From the NCBI RefSeq assembly GCF_009831575.1, contig NZ_WUUT01000001.1:395345-459344 (forward strand): DNA of 64,000 nucleotides, written 5' to 3'. Under the pieces are notes generated by a model. That model was not told the DNA's origin. It worked only from the letters and a program-made list of their open reading frames with translations, and did not search any database. This DNA is from Halovenus carboxidivorans (GTDB lineage: Archaea; Halobacteriota; Halobacteria; Halobacteriales; Haloarculaceae). The position numbers and the translations under genes were made by a program. Position 1 is the first letter of the stretch. The number at the start of each line of letters is the position of its first letter. Shown here in pieces: positions 51,082 to 63,200 of this stretch.

Positions 51082-52621
<1,540 letters not shown>

Positions 52622-52849: not shown

Positions 52850-52927
52850 ACCCCACCGTGTCGAATGTTCTGACCATAGCACAATCACTGAGCCACCCTA
52901 CCCACACCCCACCGTGTCGAGTGTTCG
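52850..52927. repeat. Two origin-box-like repeats beside an orc1 fragment
   Basis: ACCCCACCGTGTCGAATGTTCT at 52850-52871 and ACACCCCACCGTGTCGAGTGTTCG at 52904-52927 (each within the 24-base core) match the repeats around the intact orc1 at 57976-59590. Their spacing and position relative to the orc1 fragment mirror the right arm of the intact origin. They are probably a displaced piece of an origin. Confidence 0.78.
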
Positions 52928-52934
52928 ACCAGCC

Positions 52935-53321
52935 TCACAACTGACCCAGCACACGCTCCGGAAGCACAACCCCTTCCAGATCAGCGACGACCTCCTGAAC
53001 AATCCCCAGATCGACGCTGAACTCGTATTGGTAGTACTGCTCACCGTTTCGCCCCTCGTTGCGGGACTGCCGATCCAAAATACCAAGCATAGCAAGGTCG
53101 GCCAGATGATCGTGCATACGCCGACGCACCAACGGATCGATCTCAGAGCGGTCAGCGATCGTCCGATACCGAGGGTAAACCTCCCGAACCCGCGCAGGTG
53201 TGTCCTCCTCAACTGCGAGATGGAGTGTGGCCACGAGCGCGAGATGTCCGTGCTGGGTTAACTCCCGCATTCCGTGCTCGATCTGGCTCTGTTCGAGCTC
53301 TTCACGGGCGTCGTAATCCCC
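52935..53321 (-). pseudogene. 3' fragment of an Orc1/Cdc6 gene (fragment A)
   Basis: On the minus strand this encodes [20 protein letters not shown] and onwards to a stop at 52935. It matches the last third of the intact Orc1 at 58144-59352 almost residue for residue (winged-helix DNA-binding domain, with [11 protein letters not shown]). An in-frame TGA lies just upstream at 53322-53324. Most nucleotide differences from the intact gene are synonymous, so it derives from a related orc1 that diverged while functional, not from a recent duplication. Confidence 0.88.
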
Positions 53322-53356
53322 TCAACGATTCACTCGGTCAGTTCGACTAGAGTGAA

Positions 53357-53436
53357 AGAGTAGATTTCGTGTGCTTTTCGCCGTGCGCCACTCCAAGCAC
53401 AGACGTACACATAGAGAGTACGTTTCGTGTGCTCTC
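53357..53436. repeat. Imperfect direct repeat, possible second origin-box type
   Basis: AGAGTAGATTTCGTGTGCTT (from 53357) and AGAGTACGTTTCGTGTGCTC (from 53415) are two 20-base near-identical repeats 58 bases apart. The second overlaps the end of orc1 fragment B, as the other origin-like repeats lie next to the end of fragment A. They are unlike the CGACACGGTGGGG type, so they may be recognised by a different Orc1. Inference from position. Confidence 0.5.
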
Positions 53437-53604
53437 ACCGGGTGTGTTTGGCGATCTCCGTCCGGGTTTCTAACACAATCTCTGGATCCAGATCCAACTC
53501 ATACTCGTAATACTGGCCACCGCTCAACCCCTCATTCCGCTCATGGCGGCGAAGGAATCCCAGCATATGGAGGTCTGAGAGGTGATCCTGGATGCTTTTT
53601 AATG
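53435..53604 (-). pseudogene. 3' fragment of a second, divergent Orc1/Cdc6 gene (fragment B)
   Basis: On the minus strand it encodes TLKSIQDHLSDLHMLGFLRR, then [20 protein letters not shown] and a tail to the stop at 53435. This is the winged-helix end of an Orc1, but clearly a different lineage from the intact gene and fragment A. The homology stops at about 53600, where a fucose-synthase tail begins, so the two pieces are joined directly. Confidence 0.82.
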
Positions 53605-53679
53605 TCGACAGCGTTTCGAGACGGATTGCGCGAGACAATCGAGTGGTACGAGAATCACCGCGATGAACTCCATGAGTAA
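53602..53679 (+). pseudogene. Fucose synthase C-terminal remnant, copy 2
   Basis: This encodes MSTAFRDGLRETIEWYENHR and DELHE, then TAA. It matches the last 25 residues of the truncated fcl at 51415-52173 ([20 protein letters not shown]). The ATG at 53602 is probably fortuitous. The remnant keeps the 8-bp overlap with the downstream Nudix gene. Confidence 0.85.
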
Positions 53680-54127
53680 GTGGATACCCGACGAGGAATG
53701 GGCGACAATCGTTCGAAACGTGCCCATTGTGTCCGTCGATCTCCTCATACGGTCAGAGGAGGGAATCGTCCTCGGCAAACGGACCAACGAACCTGCGAAG
53801 GGAGAGTGGTTTATTCCAGGCGGACGAGTCCACAAGGGAGAGACAAGAACGGAAGCAGTCGACCGTATCGCTGCGGACGAACTGGGAGTCGAAGTCGAAA
53901 TCGTGGAATCGCTCGGTGCCTTCGAGCACATCTACGAGACTGCAGAGATCGGCGGGGTAGGAACCAAACACTATCTCGCAAACGGATATGTCGTGGACCC
54001 ATTGACCGACCAATTCCAAGCCGATGGACAACACGCCGATTTTCAGGTATTCACTGCAGCACCGCAATCACTGCATCAGAACGTGCGTGCCTATATCCAA
54101 GCGGCGGAGACGGCTGAACTATCGTGA
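53672..54127 (+). CDS. GDP-mannose mannosyl hydrolase-like Nudix protein, copy 2
   Basis: A 151-residue paralogue of copy 1 with the same Nudix-type motif (PGGRVHKGETRTEAVDR, IAADELG). I use the ATG at 53672 (MSKWIPDEEWATIVRNV) because it matches the starts of copies 1 and 3; an ATG nine bases upstream also exists. The reading frame is intact. It differs from copy 1 mainly at synonymous and some surface positions and uses more A/T-ending codons. Confidence 0.87.
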   Translation: MSKWIPDEEWATIVRNVPIVSVDLLIRSEEGIVLGKRTNEPAKGEWFIPGGRVHKGETRTEAVDRIAADELGVEVEIVESLGAFEHIYETAEIGGVGTKHYLANGYVVDPLTDQFQADGQHADFQVFTAAPQSLHQNVRAYIQAAETAELS

Positions 54128-54438: not shown

Positions 54439-55305
54439 ATGCAAGTAGACAAAGCGGTCATTCCCGCTGCTGGCTTTGGGACACGGTTTCTGCCTGTCAC
54501 AAAGGCGCAACCGAAAGAGATGATGCCGGTACTCGATAAACCGACAATCCAGTACGTCGTTGAGGAGGCAGTTGAGGCAGGTATCGATGATATTCTCATT
54601 ATTACTGGCCGCGGGAAACAGGCGATTGAGCGCCACTTCGATAAATCCTACGAGCTTGAGGAGGCCTTGGAAGCTGACAACAAACTCGACCGACTCGGTC
54701 GAGTTCGTGATATCGCAGACTTGGCTGACATCCACTACGTCCGCCAGAAGGAACGAGACGGATTGGGTGACGCAGTACGGTACGCACGCAAGCACGTTGG
54801 CGACGAACCGTTCGCGCTCCTGCTGGGCGATACCATCATCGAAAGCGCCACACCGTGTACGGAGACGCTCATCGATGCCGCCGAAGAACACGAAACCTCC
54901 GTGCTATCGCTGGAGCGTGTCCCTTGGGAAGACGTACCCGCGTACGGCGTGGCGGACGTTCAGGATGGAGCATCAACTACGCGGAGTTTCCCAGTTGATG
55001 ACTTCGTCGAAAAACCCCCACAGGAGGAAGCACCCTCGAATCTCGCAATCACGGGCCGGTACGTGCTAACGCCAGAAATTTTCGACGCTCTGGAGCGCAT
55101 CGAGAAGGGCGTCGGCGGCGAACTACAACTAACCGACGCCATCCGTGAGCTAGAGACAGTCCGCGGAGTCGAACTCAACGGCGACCGGTACGATATCGGG
55201 AACATCCCGAGTTGGCTGCAAGCGAATATCGAGATGGCGCTCCGGCACGACGACGGCGAAATGAACGCAGCGGTCGAAAAAATCCTTGAGGAGCAATTCA
55301 AATGA
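54439..55305 (+). CDS. galU: UTP-glucose-1-phosphate uridylyltransferase
   Basis: A 288-residue nucleotidyltransferase that makes UDP-glucose from UTP and glucose-1-phosphate. It begins with the GalU signature KAVIPAAGFGTRFLPVTKAQ, then PKEMMPVLDKPTIQYVVEEA, FALLLGDTIIES, and VEKPPQEEAPSNLAITGRYV. The start at 54439 is preceded by TATA-like cttatac (54407-54413). It forms a 4-base-overlapping operon with uxs, so the two probably feed UDP-glucose/UDP-glucuronate/UDP-xylose-type donors into the glycan cluster. Confidence 0.94.
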   Translation: MQVDKAVIPAAGFGTRFLPVTKAQPKEMMPVLDKPTIQYVVEEAVEAGIDDILIITGRGKQAIERHFDKSYELEEALEADNKLDRLGRVRDIADLADIHYVRQKERDGLGDAVRYARKHVGDEPFALLLGDTIIESATPCTETLIDAAEEHETSVLSLERVPWEDVPAYGVADVQDGASTTRSFPVDDFVEKPPQEEAPSNLAITGRYVLTPEIFDALERIEKGVGGELQLTDAIRELETVRGVELNGDRYDIGNIPSWLQANIEMALRHDDGEMNAAVEKILEEQFK

Positions 55306-56234
55306 GCCGAATCCTCGTCACTGGTGCGGCTGGGTTCCTTGGCTCCTACCTAACTGACCACCTCCTCGCCGACGGTCATGAAGTCATCGGGATGGACAAC
55401 CGTGTGAGCGGCCAGACTGAGAACCTCGACGACGCATTCGAACACCCTGATTTCTCGTTCTACGAACACGATGTCACCGAGTTCATCCACGTCTCTGAAG
55501 ACCTTGACGCCGTTATGCACCTGGCAAGTCTCGCGTCCCCCGTCTTCTACCGCGAGAATCCAATAAAGACGCTGAAGGTCGGTGCACTCGGCACGCACAA
55601 GACTCTGGGGCTCGCAAAGGAAAAAGACGCCACGTACCTGTTCACGTCGACGAGCGAAGTGTATGGCGACCCCAAGGTCAACCCCCAGCCCGAGGACTAC
55701 CGTGGGAACGTCGACCCATATGGGCCGCGGTCGTGCTACGATGAATCTAAGCGCTACGGTGAATCCCTCGTTCGGGCGTACCGCGACCAACACGGTCTCG
55801 ACGTTCGGGTTGCTCGCATTTTCAATACGTACGGACCACGGATGCGATTAGATGACGGGCGCGTCATCCCGAACTTCGTCAAACAGGCGCTGACTGGCGA
55901 GGACCTGACTGTGTACGGCGATGGCGAGCAGACGCGGAGCTTCTGCTACGTCTCGGACATGATTGACGGGCTGGTTGCACTCCTCGAGTCCGACGTCCAG
56001 GAACCAGTCAACATCGGGAATCCTGATGAAAGAACGATCAACGAACTCGCGCGCGTCGTTCTCGACGCCACCGGTAGCGAAAGCGATATAACGTACGAGG
56101 AACTCCCGCCACAGGACCCACAGGTGCGTCGCCCGGACATCTCGAAGGCCCGTTCAGAGCTTGAGTGGGAACCAACGGTCTCACTGTCGGACGGCCTTCG
56201 AGAATCAATCCCGTATTTTGAACGCCAGCTGTAA
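55302..56234 (+). CDS. UDP-glucuronate decarboxylase-like epimerase/dehydratase
   Basis: A 310-residue short-chain dehydrogenase: NAD motif VTGAAGFLGSYLTDHLL, TSTSEVYGDPKVNPQPEDYR, catalytic YGPRSCYDESKRYGESLV (Tyr and Lys), and RIFNTYGPRMRLDDGRVIPN. The GPRSCYDESKR segment is the signature of UDP-xylose synthases (UXS) rather than dTDP-glucose dehydratases. It would convert UDP-glucuronate to UDP-xylose or a related sugar. Translationally coupled to galU (ATGA). Confidence 0.88.
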   Translation: MSRILVTGAAGFLGSYLTDHLLADGHEVIGMDNRVSGQTENLDDAFEHPDFSFYEHDVTEFIHVSEDLDAVMHLASLASPVFYRENPIKTLKVGALGTHKTLGLAKEKDATYLFTSTSEVYGDPKVNPQPEDYRGNVDPYGPRSCYDESKRYGESLVRAYRDQHGLDVRVARIFNTYGPRMRLDDGRVIPNFVKQALTGEDLTVYGDGEQTRSFCYVSDMIDGLVALLESDVQEPVNIGNPDERTINELARVVLDATGSESDITYEELPPQDPQVRRPDISKARSELEWEPTVSLSDGLRESIPYFERQL

Positions 56235-56520: not shown

Positions 56521-56679
56521 GAACTTGACACCGCACGTAGCGAGGAGCAGCCGAGACGAAAGCTGAACATGACACTTGGAGAATAACGATTCAGCTGGGG
56601 AGCATCAACAGAATTCCGCGACGGGCTCCGCGAGACGATTGCGTGGTACGAACAGCACCGAGACGAGGAACATGAGTGA
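56521..56679 (+). pseudogene. Fucose synthase C-terminal remnant, copy 3 (with internal stop)
   Basis: This encodes ELDTARSEEQPRRKLNMTLG, then E, a TAA at 56584-56586, and RFSWGASTEFRDGLRETIAW, YEQHRDEEHE and TGA. It aligns with the end of the truncated fcl ([20 protein letters not shown] then [11 protein letters not shown]). It is longer than remnant 2 but carries a nonsense codon. The stop overlaps the Nudix start by 8 bases, as in copies 1 and 2. Confidence 0.86.
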
Positions 56680-57127
56680 GTGGGTACCGGACGAAGCGTG
56701 GGAAACAATCGTTCGGAACGTTCCGATTGTCTCCGTCGACTTGATTGTTCGAACGGAGAGTGGGATTGTGCTGGGAAAACGTCAGAATGAGCCCGCGAAA
56801 GGTGAGTGGTTCATCCCGGGTGGGCGCGTGCTCAAAAACGAAACGCGAACAGAAGCGGTCCATCGAATAGCGAAACATGAACTCGGTGTGGAGGTAGACG
56901 TGATTGAGTCACTCGGTGCGTTTGAGCATATCTACGACACAGCGGAAATCGAGGGAGTAGAGTCAAAGCATTATTTGGCGAACGGATACGTCGTTGACCC
57001 CAAGACCGAGCAGTTCCAACCAGATGATCAGCACGCTGATTTTCAGGTCTTCACCTCGCCGCCGGAGTCACTTCATCCGAATGTTACGGCGTACATTGAA
57101 GAGGCCAGTTCACTCGGTTGGGAATAA
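56672..57127 (+). CDS. GDP-mannose mannosyl hydrolase-like Nudix protein, copy 3
   Basis: A 151-residue paralogue of copies 1 and 2 (MSEWVPDEAWETIVRNVPIV), with PGGRVLKNETRTEAVHRIAK followed by HELG. The start at 56672 matches the other copies; a longer frame upstream runs into the fcl remnant. It is the most AT-rich copy. The frame is intact, so it may be functional. Confidence 0.87.
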   Translation: MSEWVPDEAWETIVRNVPIVSVDLIVRTESGIVLGKRQNEPAKGEWFIPGGRVLKNETRTEAVHRIAKHELGVEVDVIESLGAFEHIYDTAEIEGVESKHYLANGYVVDPKTEQFQPDDQHADFQVFTSPPESLHPNVTAYIEEASSLGWE

Positions 57128-57325: not shown

Positions 57326-57451
57326 ATGCCCGAAACGCCGACTCGACCAAACAGTGCCGATGTGTCTGCGCTGTCAGAGCTGACTGCGTCCCGAGTTGCC
57401 CACCAACAATCACCTCAGCGACACCAAGCGTTGGAGACTGAATGGTCCTGA
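57326..57451 (+). CDS. 41-residue ORF repeated downstream of two Nudix copies (copy 2)
   Basis: A short ORF encoding MPETPTRPNSADVSALSELT then [20 protein letters not shown] and S. It is related to the ORF at 54274-54399 (shared LSELTxSxVxHxQSPxR), and both follow a Nudix copy by 150-200 bases. It overlaps the 3' end of the minus-strand ParB-like frame by 37 bases. Function unknown; confidence rests on the conserved frame. Confidence 0.5.
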   Translation: MPETPTRPNSADVSALSELTASRVAHQQSPQRHQALETEWS

Positions 57452-58011
57452 GCGTACATCCGATGCAGTACAACCGACGGCAGTACCAGTGCATCGAGAT
57501 ACCGTTGGACTGTCTGCTGGCTTTTGACTGTCCGCTCGGCAACACTGGTTATGATAATCCGTTGGGAAGCGCCGTCCAGTCGCAATTCACTTGCGAGTGA
57601 CTGGCAGTACCGCGCCCAGTCGTAGGTACTCCACTCGCGGAGGATAATCGCAGACTCTGTCGCAGACAGCGCGCCCAGTACTGACTCGTGAACAACCACT
57701 GGCAGAGACCCCCAGTCAAGATCGGTCGCCACCTGGTAGCGCTGCCAGCCATCAGTGGCGTGAGACGCTGAGCTTGCACCATCGGGACGAACAATCAATG
57801 GCTGGCATAGCCCGTCCCGAGCAATCGACTGCTGCAACGCTTCGCTCGGGGGCACACGCCGAGGGTTGTGCTTCCAGTGAACTGACCGCTCAGTCGAGTA
57901 CCTACGAGTATGCTGAGACGTTCGTCGACACTTCCTTTTTGAGCGTTGTCTAAAACAGACTGAGCCTATTCTCCCACACCCCACTGTGTCGAGTGTTCTT
58001 ACAACACTCAA
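57415..58011 (-). CDS. ParB-like nuclease-domain protein, apparently truncated at its 3' end
   Basis: The frame encodes a ParB-type core: [35 protein letters not shown], then [20 protein letters not shown], and a helix-turn-helix region ([20 protein letters not shown]). It stops at 57415 soon after that region, shorter than typical ParB proteins. The start is uncertain: the frame opens at a TTG at 58011 and runs through an origin-like repeat (57976-58000), so the true start is probably downstream of 57970. ParB-like proteins beside an Orc1 gene fit plasmid-style partition. It may be a remnant. Confidence 0.6.
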
Positions 58012-58112
58012 GCCACGAGGCTATTTCCACGCATACACCCCACCGTGTCGAATGTTCTTAGTTTGTTTTTTGAGTTTCTACTTCATTGGACGCATTCGAC
58101 GCGGTGGTTTTA
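57976..58112. repeat. Left cluster of origin-recognition-box-like repeats
   Basis: Two copies in one orientation: ACACCCCACTGTGTCGAGTG at 57976 onwards and ACACCCCACCGTGTCGAATG at 58035 onwards (each followed by TTCTT). One degenerate copy lies in the other orientation, GCATTCGACGCGGTGG at about 58092-58107. They sit just upstream of the intact orc1. The core is a short palindrome-like CGACAC/GTGTCG flanked by a GC-rich G-string, as in archaeal ORBs. Confidence 0.75.
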
Positions 58113-58143
58113 TTATGTTGGGATACGCATGCAAAATCATCTG

Positions 58144-59352
58144 ATGACAACCTTCACTCGCGATACAGAGATTTTCCGCGATGAGGATATGCTCCGTGAA
58201 GATTATCAGCCTGAGTCAATCACAGCCCGTGAAGAAGAATTGGAGAACTACACAAAGGCACTTCAGCCAGTTGTCAACGGTGCCCAACCACGGAATATTT
58301 TCTTGTATGGCAAGACAGGAGTCGGAAAGACAGCAGTCTCACGATTTCTTCTGGACCGACTCGAACAAGATATTGAACGGTACGACGATATTGATCTATC
58401 GGTATACTGGCTCAACTGTACGAACCTTTCCTCATCCTACCAAGTTGCGGTTAATCTCGTGAACACGATTCGCGCTCCTAGTGAGCAAATTAGCACGACC
58501 GGATATCCGCAACAGCGGGTCTTCGATATTTTGTACGATGAGCTCGATACCATTGGTGGGACAATCCTACTCGTTTTTGACGAGATCGATCAAATCGGCA
58601 ACGACGATGAAATCCTCTATGAATTGCCTCGTGCTCGTTCAAACGACTATCTCGAATCCGCAAAACCAGGTGTGATTGGTATCAGCAACGATTTCGGATT
58701 CCGAGACGATCTCTCTCCGAAAGTTAAGGACACCCTCTGTGAAGAAGAGATCCACTTCTCGCCGTATAACGGCCCAGAACTCGAAGCAATTCTGCAAGAA
58801 CGCGCCGATGGGGCGCTGTTTGAGGATGCGACTGAACAGGGAGTGATCCCGCTGTGTGCTGCGCTTGCTGCACAGGATACCGGGAGTGCACGGCAGGCAT
58901 TGAACCTCCTGTATAACGCGGGCGAGTTGGCTAGGACGGAGGCCAAATCTGTAATCTCAGAAGCTCACGTCCACGATGCTCGTGACGAACTTGAACAGAG
59001 CCAAATTGAACATGGAATGCGGGAATTGACCCAGCATGGTCACCTCGCACTTGTAGCCACGCTCCATCTCGCACTTGAGGAAGATACGCCTGCACGAGTA
59101 CGGGACATCTATCCCCGATATCGGACAATAGCCGACCGCTCGGAGATCGACCCGCTCGTGCGCCGTCGAATGCACGATCATTTAGCTGACCTTGCTATGC
59201 TCGGAATTCTTGACCGACAGTCCCGTAATGAAGGGCGAAGTGGTGGCCAGTACTACGAATATGAGTTCAGTGTTGATCTAAGGATTGTTCAAGAGGTCGT
59301 GGCTGATCTAGAAGGGGTTGTGCTCCCGGAACGTTTGCTGCGCCAATTATAG
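58144..59352 (+). CDS. orc1: Orc1/Cdc6 replication initiator
   Basis: A 402-residue AAA+ ATPase that binds origin boxes and loads the replicative helicase. The start at 58144 ([20 protein letters not shown]) is used; a frame opening at 58045 would run through an origin box. Motifs: Walker [21 protein letters not shown], Walker [15 protein letters not shown], sensor 1 [10 protein letters not shown], and a C-terminal winged helix ([20 protein letters not shown]). The gene is intact and flanked on both sides by related repeats, so it probably marks an active or recently active origin. Confidence 0.95.
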
Positions 59353-59366
59353 GGCTGTGTCGTGGG

Positions 59367-59590
59367 AAGAACATTCGACACGGTGGGGTGTGTATGTGCA
59401 GTCCTCAATACTTTATCGCGAGGGGGCGTAGAACACTCGACATGGTGGGGTGGGTGTCTTCCAACTGTTCTATATCAGCCCGTACCCCACGTGTACACGT
59501 TCGAGGTGTATCTATACTCTCTGCTACAATTGATCCACAACTTCCTGTAACGGCTCTCATGGGACAAGAACACTCGACACGGTGGGGTGT
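59367..59590. repeat. Right cluster of origin-recognition-box-like repeats
   Basis: Three copies in the orientation opposite to the left cluster: AAGAACATTCGACACGGTGG at 59367-59391, TAGAACACTCGACATGGTGG at 59429-59453 and AAGAACACTCGACACGGTGG at 59566-59590 (each followed by GGTG). The first lies 15 bases after the orc1 stop. Left and right clusters face each other across the orc1 gene, a layout seen at haloarchaeal origins. Confidence 0.78.
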
Positions 59591-60258: not shown

Positions 60259-63200
60259 ATGGGAGATGAACAGGACGACCACACAGCTGACCCACCGCTG
60301 GACCCGAGCGGCATCGCCCAGTTTGTCGAACATGACCGCTGCCCGCGGTATCTGAAGCAGCATGTTGACCCGGGCGACGAAGCCACCGCTCGCAAGTGGC
60401 GCGAAGCATATGGCCTGATGAACATCGCCCTGTTGGGCACGGGCAAGGAGTTTGAAGCGACACAGATCGAGGCACTGGCCGCGAATGCAACAACGGTGAT
60501 AAGCCCGGAGCTGGGCGACCGGTCACAGGATGCTGTGCCAGACATCACTGTCGACGAGACGTGGGCGGACTCGCCGAGGGGCCGAACCGCTCAACTCGCC
60601 GATGCTGTCGAACAGGCAGCCGCGCTTACCCCAACCGGCGATGAAGTGCCGTACATTCTTTTGTATCAGGTCCCGTTGGACGGCCACCTTGGCAACGAAG
60701 CTGTGTATGGTGACGCTGACTGCATTGCACTCGCGCCCGCGAGCGCACTTGCGGACACAACACATATCGATGACGCCACGGTCGTTGGACGAACAATTGA
60801 TTGCAAGAGCGCGAGTGAGGAACAACCAGCCCACCGCGTCCAAGTGGCGGCGTACTGCGCCCTGCTGGAGCAGACTCTCGCCGAGGGACCCTGCGACATC
60901 AACTGCCACATCGAGGCAAGCGTCCTGACAGAGGCCGACGCGACCACAGACACCCCACAGTCACCGTTTGACCTGCCGACATTCCGCCGCTCGGAGTGGG
61001 AACTGTTCGTCACGCAACTGCTTGCCGAGGACGGCCCCGTCGAGGAGGCACTGGCTGACGACTTAGAAGACCTGCCGTTCGCCCTTGACCAAGTCTGTAA
61101 CAACTGCGCATACCGGGAAGCCTGCGCGACGCGTGCCGTTGAGAACTCCCGAAACACACAGAGTCTCGCCTTGCTGGGACTGAACGCGAGCACACAGCGA
61201 ACCCTTCAGGACGCGGGGCTCACGAGTCTCCATGACATCGCCACACTGGCGCCGCCCAACCGAAAGACGACGCCGATGGATGACCCGCCACAACTCGATA
61301 TCGACGCAGACCTGCGGCGCACACTCGAAGAATCACTCCCGTATCCGATTCACGAACTCGTGCTCCGTGCACAGGCTCTGTACGGCGAAATCGAACCCGA
61401 CTATCCGGAATATCGATTCCCACCAGCGATCCCCGGCAACGACTGGGTCCCGCTGCCAGACGACCGCTGTGCTGGCTGGGGCAATATCGACGGTGCCGAC
61501 CCAGGAGAGTTGATCCACGTTGCACTGTTCGTCCGACCGGATTCGGCGATCAACCGACTCGGGGCGCTTGGCGCGTGTATTACTGCTGACGACTACAAAG
61601 AGTACATCACAATTGGCGAAGTCATTGATGCGGTCCCCGACGATGACAGCCTCGCCACCGACGTTGAAGCGGACCTCTTCGAGCGGTTCTTGACACAACT
61701 GTTCAACGCGATCAAAGAAGTCGCAACAGCACTCGGCGAACCCGAACAGGCGGTGCTTCACTGCTACACGTACAGCGAGCATGAACTGGATGTCCTGACC
61801 GAGGCACTCGACCGACACAGCGATTCACTCACTCGCGCTCGCGCGCTGCGTGCGCTGTGTAGTCTCGATGAAGACGGCCACACCGAGATCGACCAGTCGA
61901 TGGTGACGCCCGTCCAGCCGGTCATCAACGACCATTTCGCGCTGCAATCGCCGTCGCAGGGCCTGTTGAGTGTCGTCGATCAGTTCGACGCCAGCTGGAC
62001 CATCGACACGTTCGACCCGCCGGATGCACGGCCTGACGACCCACCGATTCGAGACATCTTCAGCGAGCAATTCCTTACCGATGCGGCCCCGTACCTCAGA
62101 GACGACCCCGGCATTCGCCTGCATCTGGGCCGTGGGCCCCTCGGCGAGGGGCCGGCCGCCGACGTTGTCGAGGCCGACCAGCCTGATCCTGATGGCTGGT
62201 ATCGCATCCGCAAGCGCAGTGGCGGTCAGTTCCCCTTGGAGTACCTCTGGGCGGCCGTCCCGAAACGACCTGACGACGACCAGCCGCGACTCCACCCCGT
62301 TGTTGTTGAACAGTGGGCCGTTGAAGACGAGCATCGGGACCTGTACCGGCAAGAAATCAACCGCTTCTACGGCCGGACCGGCGAAGGCAACGAACGCCTG
62401 CAGCGCCGAGACGTGACGACGCTTGTCGAACGGCTCAGCTACAGTCTGCAGCGCCTCGTCGAGGCGATTCCCTACAAGAACGCCTACCAGCCGAAAGAAC
62501 CACTCGACGTGACAGAACTGGCGGCATTCGAGCCACCTGTGTCAGGCCTGCCCGCAGCGGCGCGAGATTATCTCCGGATGGAGTTCGGTGCCAGCCGTGA
62601 CGCAACACTCGCCCAGTACCGGTCATCATTACGCGAGCGCGCTCGCAGCGGGCGGTCGATGCCGGTTCGCTGTACCGACTACACACTCGCAGACGACGGG
62701 ACGCTCACCATCACCGCCGACCTCGCCTACGAGGACCTGTTCGACGACCCAGCCACGGCCACACAGGTCGCACAGCAGGCTCGCCTCCGGAGTGCTGACG
62801 GGACGAGCGGTGGCAGTTGGCGAGTACTGACCCGCCTCACCCAGCGCACCACTGATCCGGACTGTGAGCGGTCTCCTGTCCAGCCGGACCTCGAACCGAC
62901 CGTTGACGACCCAGAAGACACGAAACACTCGCCGCCAGTGTTCGTCGATCAGCTCGATGTTGATGCGGGAGAGATTGTCCTGACAATACTGCCACACCGG
63001 TTTCGCCGCCACGGCAGCCGCTTTCGCGTCGACCACTGTGGCTGGCAGTGCCCGGAGGGAAGTAATCTCACCGACCCCGACCAGCCACCGAGCGAGCGGG
63101 ATGGCTACGTCGCCGAGCGTCCGCCGGTCTGGATCGACACCGACGAGGTGTATATGCTCGATCCGATGGTCGATGATTTCGGCGCCCCCAAGGCAGACCG

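Follow-up and report, generated by a model that had tools for sequence, protein, structure and literature searches.

Gain and loss of archaeal replication origins have so far been deduced mainly from the presence, absence and context of orc1 genes, to judge from the portions consulted of two studies (PMC3528665, PMC4441112). In the accessible parts of the first (Wu et al. 2012; PMC3528665), the ORB sequence is coupled to the lineage of the initiator, some genes have ORBs on both sides, two ORB types can occur beside one orc gene (Hla_3512, HQ2959A), and species-specific origins lie in divergent regions rich in polysaccharide genes. The sections drawn on from the second (Wu et al. 2014; PMC4441112) describe variable regions, including VR1 of Haloarcula, as hotspots of origin acquisition, loss and disruption, and two cdc6D origin types as the result of independent gains. 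Four of the nine chromosomal orc/cdc6 genes of Haloquadratum walsbyi C23 are pseudogenes, according to an excerpt of PMC3119063, whilst the plasmid pR1SE is reported in extracts of PMC10818511 to spread in vesicles, to integrate and to carry host DNA.

The window analysed here is a stretch of 64,000 nucleotides from Halovenus carboxidivorans (C1:395345-459344 of a 3.25-Mb assembly in 10 contigs). It contains an intact orc1 gene and the 3′ ends of two others (Table 1); orcA denotes the lineage of the intact gene and of relic A, orcB that of relic B. A sequence-only reading had placed the two fragments at 52850-53604, bounds which we correct to 52851-53613, and had seen in them the wreckage of at least two earlier origins. 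The presence of two lineages, each with matched repeats, supports that view, which can be sharpened in that the repeats of relic B abut the breakpoint of relic A. This short region probably represents the remains of two earlier orc1-type origins that were overwritten in place, beside a third, intact one.

Table 1. Features of the origin locus (positions within the window)
Feature	Position	Strand	Remarks
Epimerase and first NUDIX gene	51487-52621	+	further NUDIX copies at 53672 and 56684; A-type ORBs of relic A 230 bp away
A-type ORB	52851-52870	-	downstream side of relic A; 0 mismatches
A-type ORB	52907-52926	-	downstream side of relic A; 0 mismatches
Relic A	52935-53313	-	5′-truncated orc1, orcA lineage; 125 codons + stop; complete winged-helix domain
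B-type ORB	53357-53375	-	end ~42 bp from breakpoint of relic A
B-type ORB	53415-53433	-	adjoins stop codon of relic B
Relic B	53435-53613	-	5′-truncated orc1, orcB lineage; 57-59 codons + stop
Sugar epimerase remnant (C-terminal), then NUDIX gene	53605-54127	+	truncated side of relic B
Nucleotidyltransferase and epimerase pair	54439-56234	+	part of glycan island
Third NUDIX gene	56672-57127	+
ParB_N-domain gene	57415-58011	-	adjoins intact orc1
Two A-type ORBs	57979-58057	-	upstream of intact orc1 (57979-57998, 58038-58057)
AT-rich stretch	58060-58143		putative unwinding element and promoter
Intact orc1/cdc6	58144-59352	+	orcA lineage; 402 aa; AAA, Cdc6 lid and winged-helix domains
Three A-type ORBs	59369-59587	+	downstream of intact orc1 (59369-59388, 59431-59450, 59568-59587)

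Initiator lineages and their repeats

Relic A comprises the C-terminal codons of an orc1 gene and is 92% identical in protein and 80.5% identical in DNA to the intact gene; 59 codons are identical, 56 carry synonymous changes and 10 carry replacements (59, 57 and 10 with the stop included), which bears out the earlier description of a very similar protein with many synonymous base changes, lying beside two repeats of the type found around the intact gene. A recent duplication of the intact gene was rejected as its source, the DNA identity being 80.5% to the intact gene and 81.6% to that of the congener G097. The winged-helix domain (Cdc6_C, PF09079) is complete (profile positions 3-95 of 96, E 8e-21) and lies in an open frame of 111 aa. 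Relic A has kept its reading frame, and its 8 private replacements are no excess over those of the two intact congeners (2 and 9), so that its truncation is either recent or the relic is still constrained. It has a Glu at one position, which we take to be in the wing, where 23 of 24 outgroup rows have Gly.

The frame of relic B is open from the junction to the stop codon and holds only about half of the Cdc6_C domain. Its identity to the intact protein is 55-60%, but it reaches 91% to full-length Orc1 proteins of genomes G117 and G116, and it therefore belongs to another lineage, as had been proposed; the G117 orcB is identical to that of Natronomonas gomsonensis YCN60. Both full-length homologues are flanked by the AGAGTA-type repeat, each having three outward-pointing copies upstream and two downstream, which is the association that the sequence-only reading had predicted. 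A search of a phage collection gave no orcB match at 1e-10. The 5′ ends of relics A and B are absent, so neither retains an intact initiator, promoter or unwinding element. The fragments do lie beside repeats, as had been noted; more precisely, each pair is located 3′ of its fragment, like the downstream repeats of intact cassettes.

The A-type consensus (88 sites) is GAACACTCGACACgGTGGGGTG, with the G-string at the ORB end present, and the B-type consensus (99 sites) is gAaAgCACACGAAAtgTACTCTCtc, without the G-string reported for haloarchaeal ORBs (PMC3528665). Both share a CAC.CGA.A core, from which we infer that the B-type repeat may work like an ORB. Seven A-type sites (shuffled expectation 0.09) and two B-type sites (0.04) occur in the window, and these are also the only ones in the whole assembly: all seven A-type sites (≤2 mismatches) are at the locus, both B-type sites are 3′ of relic B, and reversed-pattern controls gave 0 in each case. 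Dispersal of the repeats over the genome, which would have spoken against the earlier reading, is rejected.

Among 146 genomes of the family, 12 have an orcA gene (one of them, in G018, broken), and all 12 have A-type repeats, 64 of whose 65 sites lie within ~6 kb of orcA; four further genomes have an A-type match at one site each. B-type sites occur in 14 of the 146, but the only site in each of G011, G016, G025 and G109, and one of the seven sites of G064, are not near an orcB that we saw. In other families, at least two A-type repeats accompany orcA at 20 of 20 loci (L090-L109). At least one B-type repeat (≤2 mismatches) is present at 27 of 35 orcB-related loci in named records, the eight loci without one all being at ≤69% identity. 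Inverted repeats specific to the B lineage stand on both sides of the gene in several genomes, among them G117, G116, H. coriense and H. salinus. No B-type site was found at 20 control loci (20 kb each) that hold orc1 genes of other lineages, and one of these loci had two A-type sites. These distributions argue that the matched pairs of initiator and binding sites proposed earlier are real, and specific recognition presumably follows lineage.

Repeats of one lineage can also be found beside genes of the other. In Halobellus salinus nine A-type repeats with a period of ~42 bp (L112 5056-5411) form an orphan ORB array 0.2 kb from the orcB cassette, and no orcA gene was found in this genome, the best match to orcA being its own orcB at 46%. 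A-type repeats likewise lie beside orcB genes or relics in G116, Halorubrum salsamenti and H. amylolyticum, in which no orcA gene was found (best matches 43-56%).

The initiator of the intact cassette scores above cut-offs for AAA_22, Cdc6_lid and Cdc6_C, and at least two inverted, lineage-specific ORBs are present, two upstream on the minus strand and three downstream on the plus strand; in most intact cassettes the upstream and downstream repeats both point away from the gene. The stretch between the upstream repeats and the gene is AT-richer (61% AT vs 42% in the window), a modest difference, and contains a degenerate inverted ORB core (58093-58107) beside a TATA-like TTTTATTA. An AT-richer stretch at this place, with a degenerate core in the opposite direction beside a TATA-like element, appears to recur in cassettes, and core and element were also recognised by eye in four orcB loci. 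GC skew over 400 kb gave no clear origin signal. A 60% homologue of the adjoining ParB_N-domain gene lies ~6 kb beyond the orcA cassette of G097 (L070 17212-17634). Beyond the intact origin, an open frame at 60259-62061 has weak PD-(D/E)XK/Cas4-like matches below Pfam cut-offs.

Comparison of related genomes indicates the extent of the conserved block. N. gomsonensis and G116 share an orcB block with 92% identity, which extends 37 bp outside the first repeat and 15 bp past the last. To its right the sequences then differ; to its left homology (81%) is back after ~0.1 kb in one genome and ~0.8 kb in the other, so the orcB site is the same in both. The orcA block is common to the window and G097 (81%) and the immediate surroundings are not, with two short matches (119 and 177 bp) farther off. 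The orcA cassette of G020 (L074 8637-10261) has 86-88% DNA identity to cassettes in Halorubrum coriense, G444 and G341 (L092, L094, L111), the latter two genomes belonging to another family and the Halorubrum coriense match being 908 bp long and ended by a contig edge; this identity across families exceeds that between the window and G097, and points to a recent transfer of this type of cassette between families. In G006 (L072 7679-7804 and 9385-10533) the first 21 codons of orcA stand apart, 1.6 kb upstream of the remainder, and look split off by an insertion; the upstream A-type repeats are also in two groups ~1 kb apart.

Cassettes abutting relics

The repeats of relic B adjoin the breakpoint of relic A, and the same architecture occurs in four other genomes. 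We examined 70 3′ ends of orcA and orcB genes and relics, of which 67 are distinct (three were seen twice). At eight of the 67, orc1 homology occurs no more than 900 bp past the last repeat, in six cases on the same strand and in two on the opposite one; with a same-strand relic at only six of the 67, most cassettes do not stand on a recognisable relic. In five of the six same-strand cases the relic starts ≤45 bp from the last ORB. The repeats of relic B are followed by relic A after 42 bp in the window; in G020 those of orcA are followed after 32 bp by an orcB relic from about codon 207-211; and in G116 those of orcB are followed after 19 bp by an orcA relic from residue 356, of which only 24 residues are recognised (E 4e-4) but which A-type repeats follow. 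An orcA-related relic begins ~24 bp beyond the orcB repeats in Halorubrum coriense. In Natronomonas gomsonensis the relic beyond the orcB repeats is orcA-like; it begins 1-25 bp from them, at about residue 163-170. In the sixth case (L079) the relic begins 0.4 kb away.

The order of the layers is not constant: A lies over B in one genome (G020), and B over A or an A-like gene in the window and three others. In G020 the A cassette is located between upstream B-type ORBs and an orcB remnant with its own B-type ORBs; the B-type repeats upstream show A to be nested in B. A single ancestral composite for all stacks was rejected, since the orcB breakpoints differ (about codon 104-110 in L133/L138, 163 in L139, 207-211 in G020 and 342 in the window). 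The orcA breakpoints are at residue 277 in the window and 356 in G116. L133 and L138 align at 89%, and some stacks are therefore of common ancestry.

Truncated relics nearly always lack the 5′ side. A search of 56 loci with eleven Orc1 queries gave 16 5′-truncated relics and one 3′-truncated relic (p 0.0003), a sign test that is optimistic since some relics are related and three of the 16 are in one locus (L079). This count leaves out two rows that touch contig edges, a duplicate of one locus, the N. gomsonensis relic (both ends missing; merged in the table), and the relics found only by the C-terminal query (those of the window, L081, L087 and L089, and the main L079 hit); it includes the G020 relic, even though its row was merged with orcA and it was also matched by the C-terminal query. 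The sole 3′-truncated piece (L072) is the stretch of the first 21 codons of an orcA gene of which the rest lies 1.6 kb on. No truncated orc1 copy was found in the 20 control loci. Twelve genomes, hand-picked after the C-terminal search results were known rather than at random, gave eight C-terminal-only pieces and no clear N-terminal-only piece at differing cut-offs (1e-8 and 1e-5); at an equal cut-off of 1e-8, four of the eight remain. Counter-cases in this set are one ambiguous N-terminal match of 306 aa (G013:C1:108909) and two internal, stop-containing pieces of the N-domain (G008:C32, G043:C3); a broken gene is present with both its halves in G034, and a gene of G011 is frameshifted. In G052 (L079 4460-11775) four 5′-truncated orc1 relics lie in one orientation within 7.3 kb; they are best matched by three different query lineages, and one has B-type repeats.

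Possible histories of the locus

The best reading of these observations is that ORB-orc1-ORB cassettes have repeatedly arrived and overwritten, in place, the origins already resident there. Each origin would be a cassette of upstream ORBs, an AT-rich element with promoter, orc1, and downstream ORBs serving its own initiator only. An incoming cassette would replace the 5′ part of the resident orc1, that is the promoter, the unwinding element and the ATPase part, and so silence it, whilst the old winged-helix end and the old downstream ORBs would stay behind. The loss of the 5′ side might, as a guess, reflect exchange with the 3′ glycan flank as its anchor. In the window a B cassette may have overwritten an older A-type origin and then been cut down on its own 5′ side by exchange of glycan genes (epimerase-NUDIX); a different A-type cassette is now present 5 kb away. 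As the latter lies at this distance and on the other strand, it would not have overwritten the relics directly. Both the order of events and the replacement in place are deduced from sequence comparison. That the cassette, of ~1.5 kb and bounded by inverted ORBs, is itself a mobile unit which preferentially replaces the 5′ half of a resident orc1 in the same orientation ("origin homing"), one initiator after another taking over a single site and leaving layers behind, is a more speculative proposal, which we think rather doubtful.

The surroundings of the locus would also fit a different, less likely history, in which the relic block and the epimerase/NUDIX genes were acquired already broken, through exchange of a surface-glycan island, with no succession of origins at this place. 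The locus is in a low-GC island of ~50 kb (49-58% GC, where the remaining 10-kb bins of a 400-kb region have 61-68%) with genes for glycosyltransferases, epimerases, a sugar transferase and a nucleotidyltransferase, and with NUDIX genes that are presumably Gmm-like. Three divergent units of an epimerase 3′ end and a NUDIX gene lie within 4.8 kb (52099-52398, 53605-53904, 56605-56904), the outer ones 73% and 68% identical to the middle copy, which suggests several exchanges, perhaps from different donors. Homologous glycan genes are also present near cassettes in G020 (epimerase, 82%), Halorubrum sp. L139 (82%) and Halobellus salinus (84-87%); in the last, counterparts of the window's nucleotidyltransferase (87%) and epimerase (84.5%) lie as a pair near the orcB cassette. 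One or more glycan homologues occur at 8 of 16 A/B loci and at least two at 6 of 16, vs 0 of 20 control orc1 loci in both comparisons (Fisher p 0.0004 and 0.004), with controls unmatched as to replicon type and some of the 16 loci selected for the relics in them; these counts were made by hand, minus four queries (one ATPase_2 gene, two sulfatase-like genes and a third weak sulfatase match). Import of a ready-made wreck would nonetheless only shift the overwriting to another genome, as the abutting architecture needs the same events there, and the point of breakage varies from genome to genome (orcA residue 277 in the window, 356 in G116). We regard such an import as unlikely, though credible enough to be kept in view.

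The retained winged-helix ends and ORBs might instead be functional, for example as a short DNA-binding protein or as decoy sites that damp the intact A-type origin. The complete domain in the open frame of relic A, its few replacements, the two perfect A-type sites beside it and the excess of C-terminal-only over N-terminal-only copies in the 12 hand-picked genomes (eight against none clear, plus two internal) would fit such a role; relic B, however, lacks about half of the domain, relic A has the Glu in place of the Gly of nearly all outgroup rows, and a recent truncation accounts for the open frame, which together make a retained function improbable. Still less probable is that plasmid-borne origins suffered two random deletions unrelated to each other and kept their repeats by chance: insertions and deletions are common in the variable regions of Haloarcula, as far as the consulted part of PMC4441112 goes, but the same orientation and a spacing below 45 bp in five genomes, the strong 5′ bias and the lineage-matched repeats all speak against chance.

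Relation to described systems

Overwriting in place, if it is the route by which cassettes replace resident origins at orc1, would be a testable form of replacement and not simple addition. From layered relics that keep their matched sites the succession of takeovers could be read directly, A over B once and B over A elsewhere, and the many natural initiator/ORB pairs could help to decode how Orc1 recognises its sites. Cassettes might be carried by a plasmid such as pR1SE2 of Halorubrum lacusprofundi (NZ_KX906370.1; L145 5531-7305), whose orc1 belongs to the orcA lineage (81%) and has six A-type ORBs upstream and two downstream; since pR1SE integrates and carries host DNA, in the account excerpted from PMC10818511, a plasmid of this kind could have delivered the cassette. 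The pR1SE2 cassette differs from the locus described here in lying on a plasmid.

Two elements of this picture were already published in 2012-2014, namely that matched initiator/site pairs travel together and that origins turn over in polysaccharide-gene regions (PMC3528665, PMC4441112, in the parts considered). Within the open-licence literature, as far as its texts were accessible, we found no description of matched relics, abutting layers or a 5′ bias, and a literature text search for a winged helix with a truncated cdc6 gave no paper. The cdc6 pseudogenes of Haloquadratum walsbyi come with nothing stated on ORBs or on the truncated side in the excerpt of PMC3119063. PMC3528665 does not use the words truncated, pseudogene, remnant or relic, and the ORBs given there have a G-string, which the B-type site lacks; its accessible parts do not describe abutting layers of the same orientation. 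The words truncated, remnant, relic and pseudogene are likewise absent from PMC4441112; in the sections of that study on which we draw, origins are disrupted by transposases, whereas here the DNA abutting the broken gene is another origin cassette.
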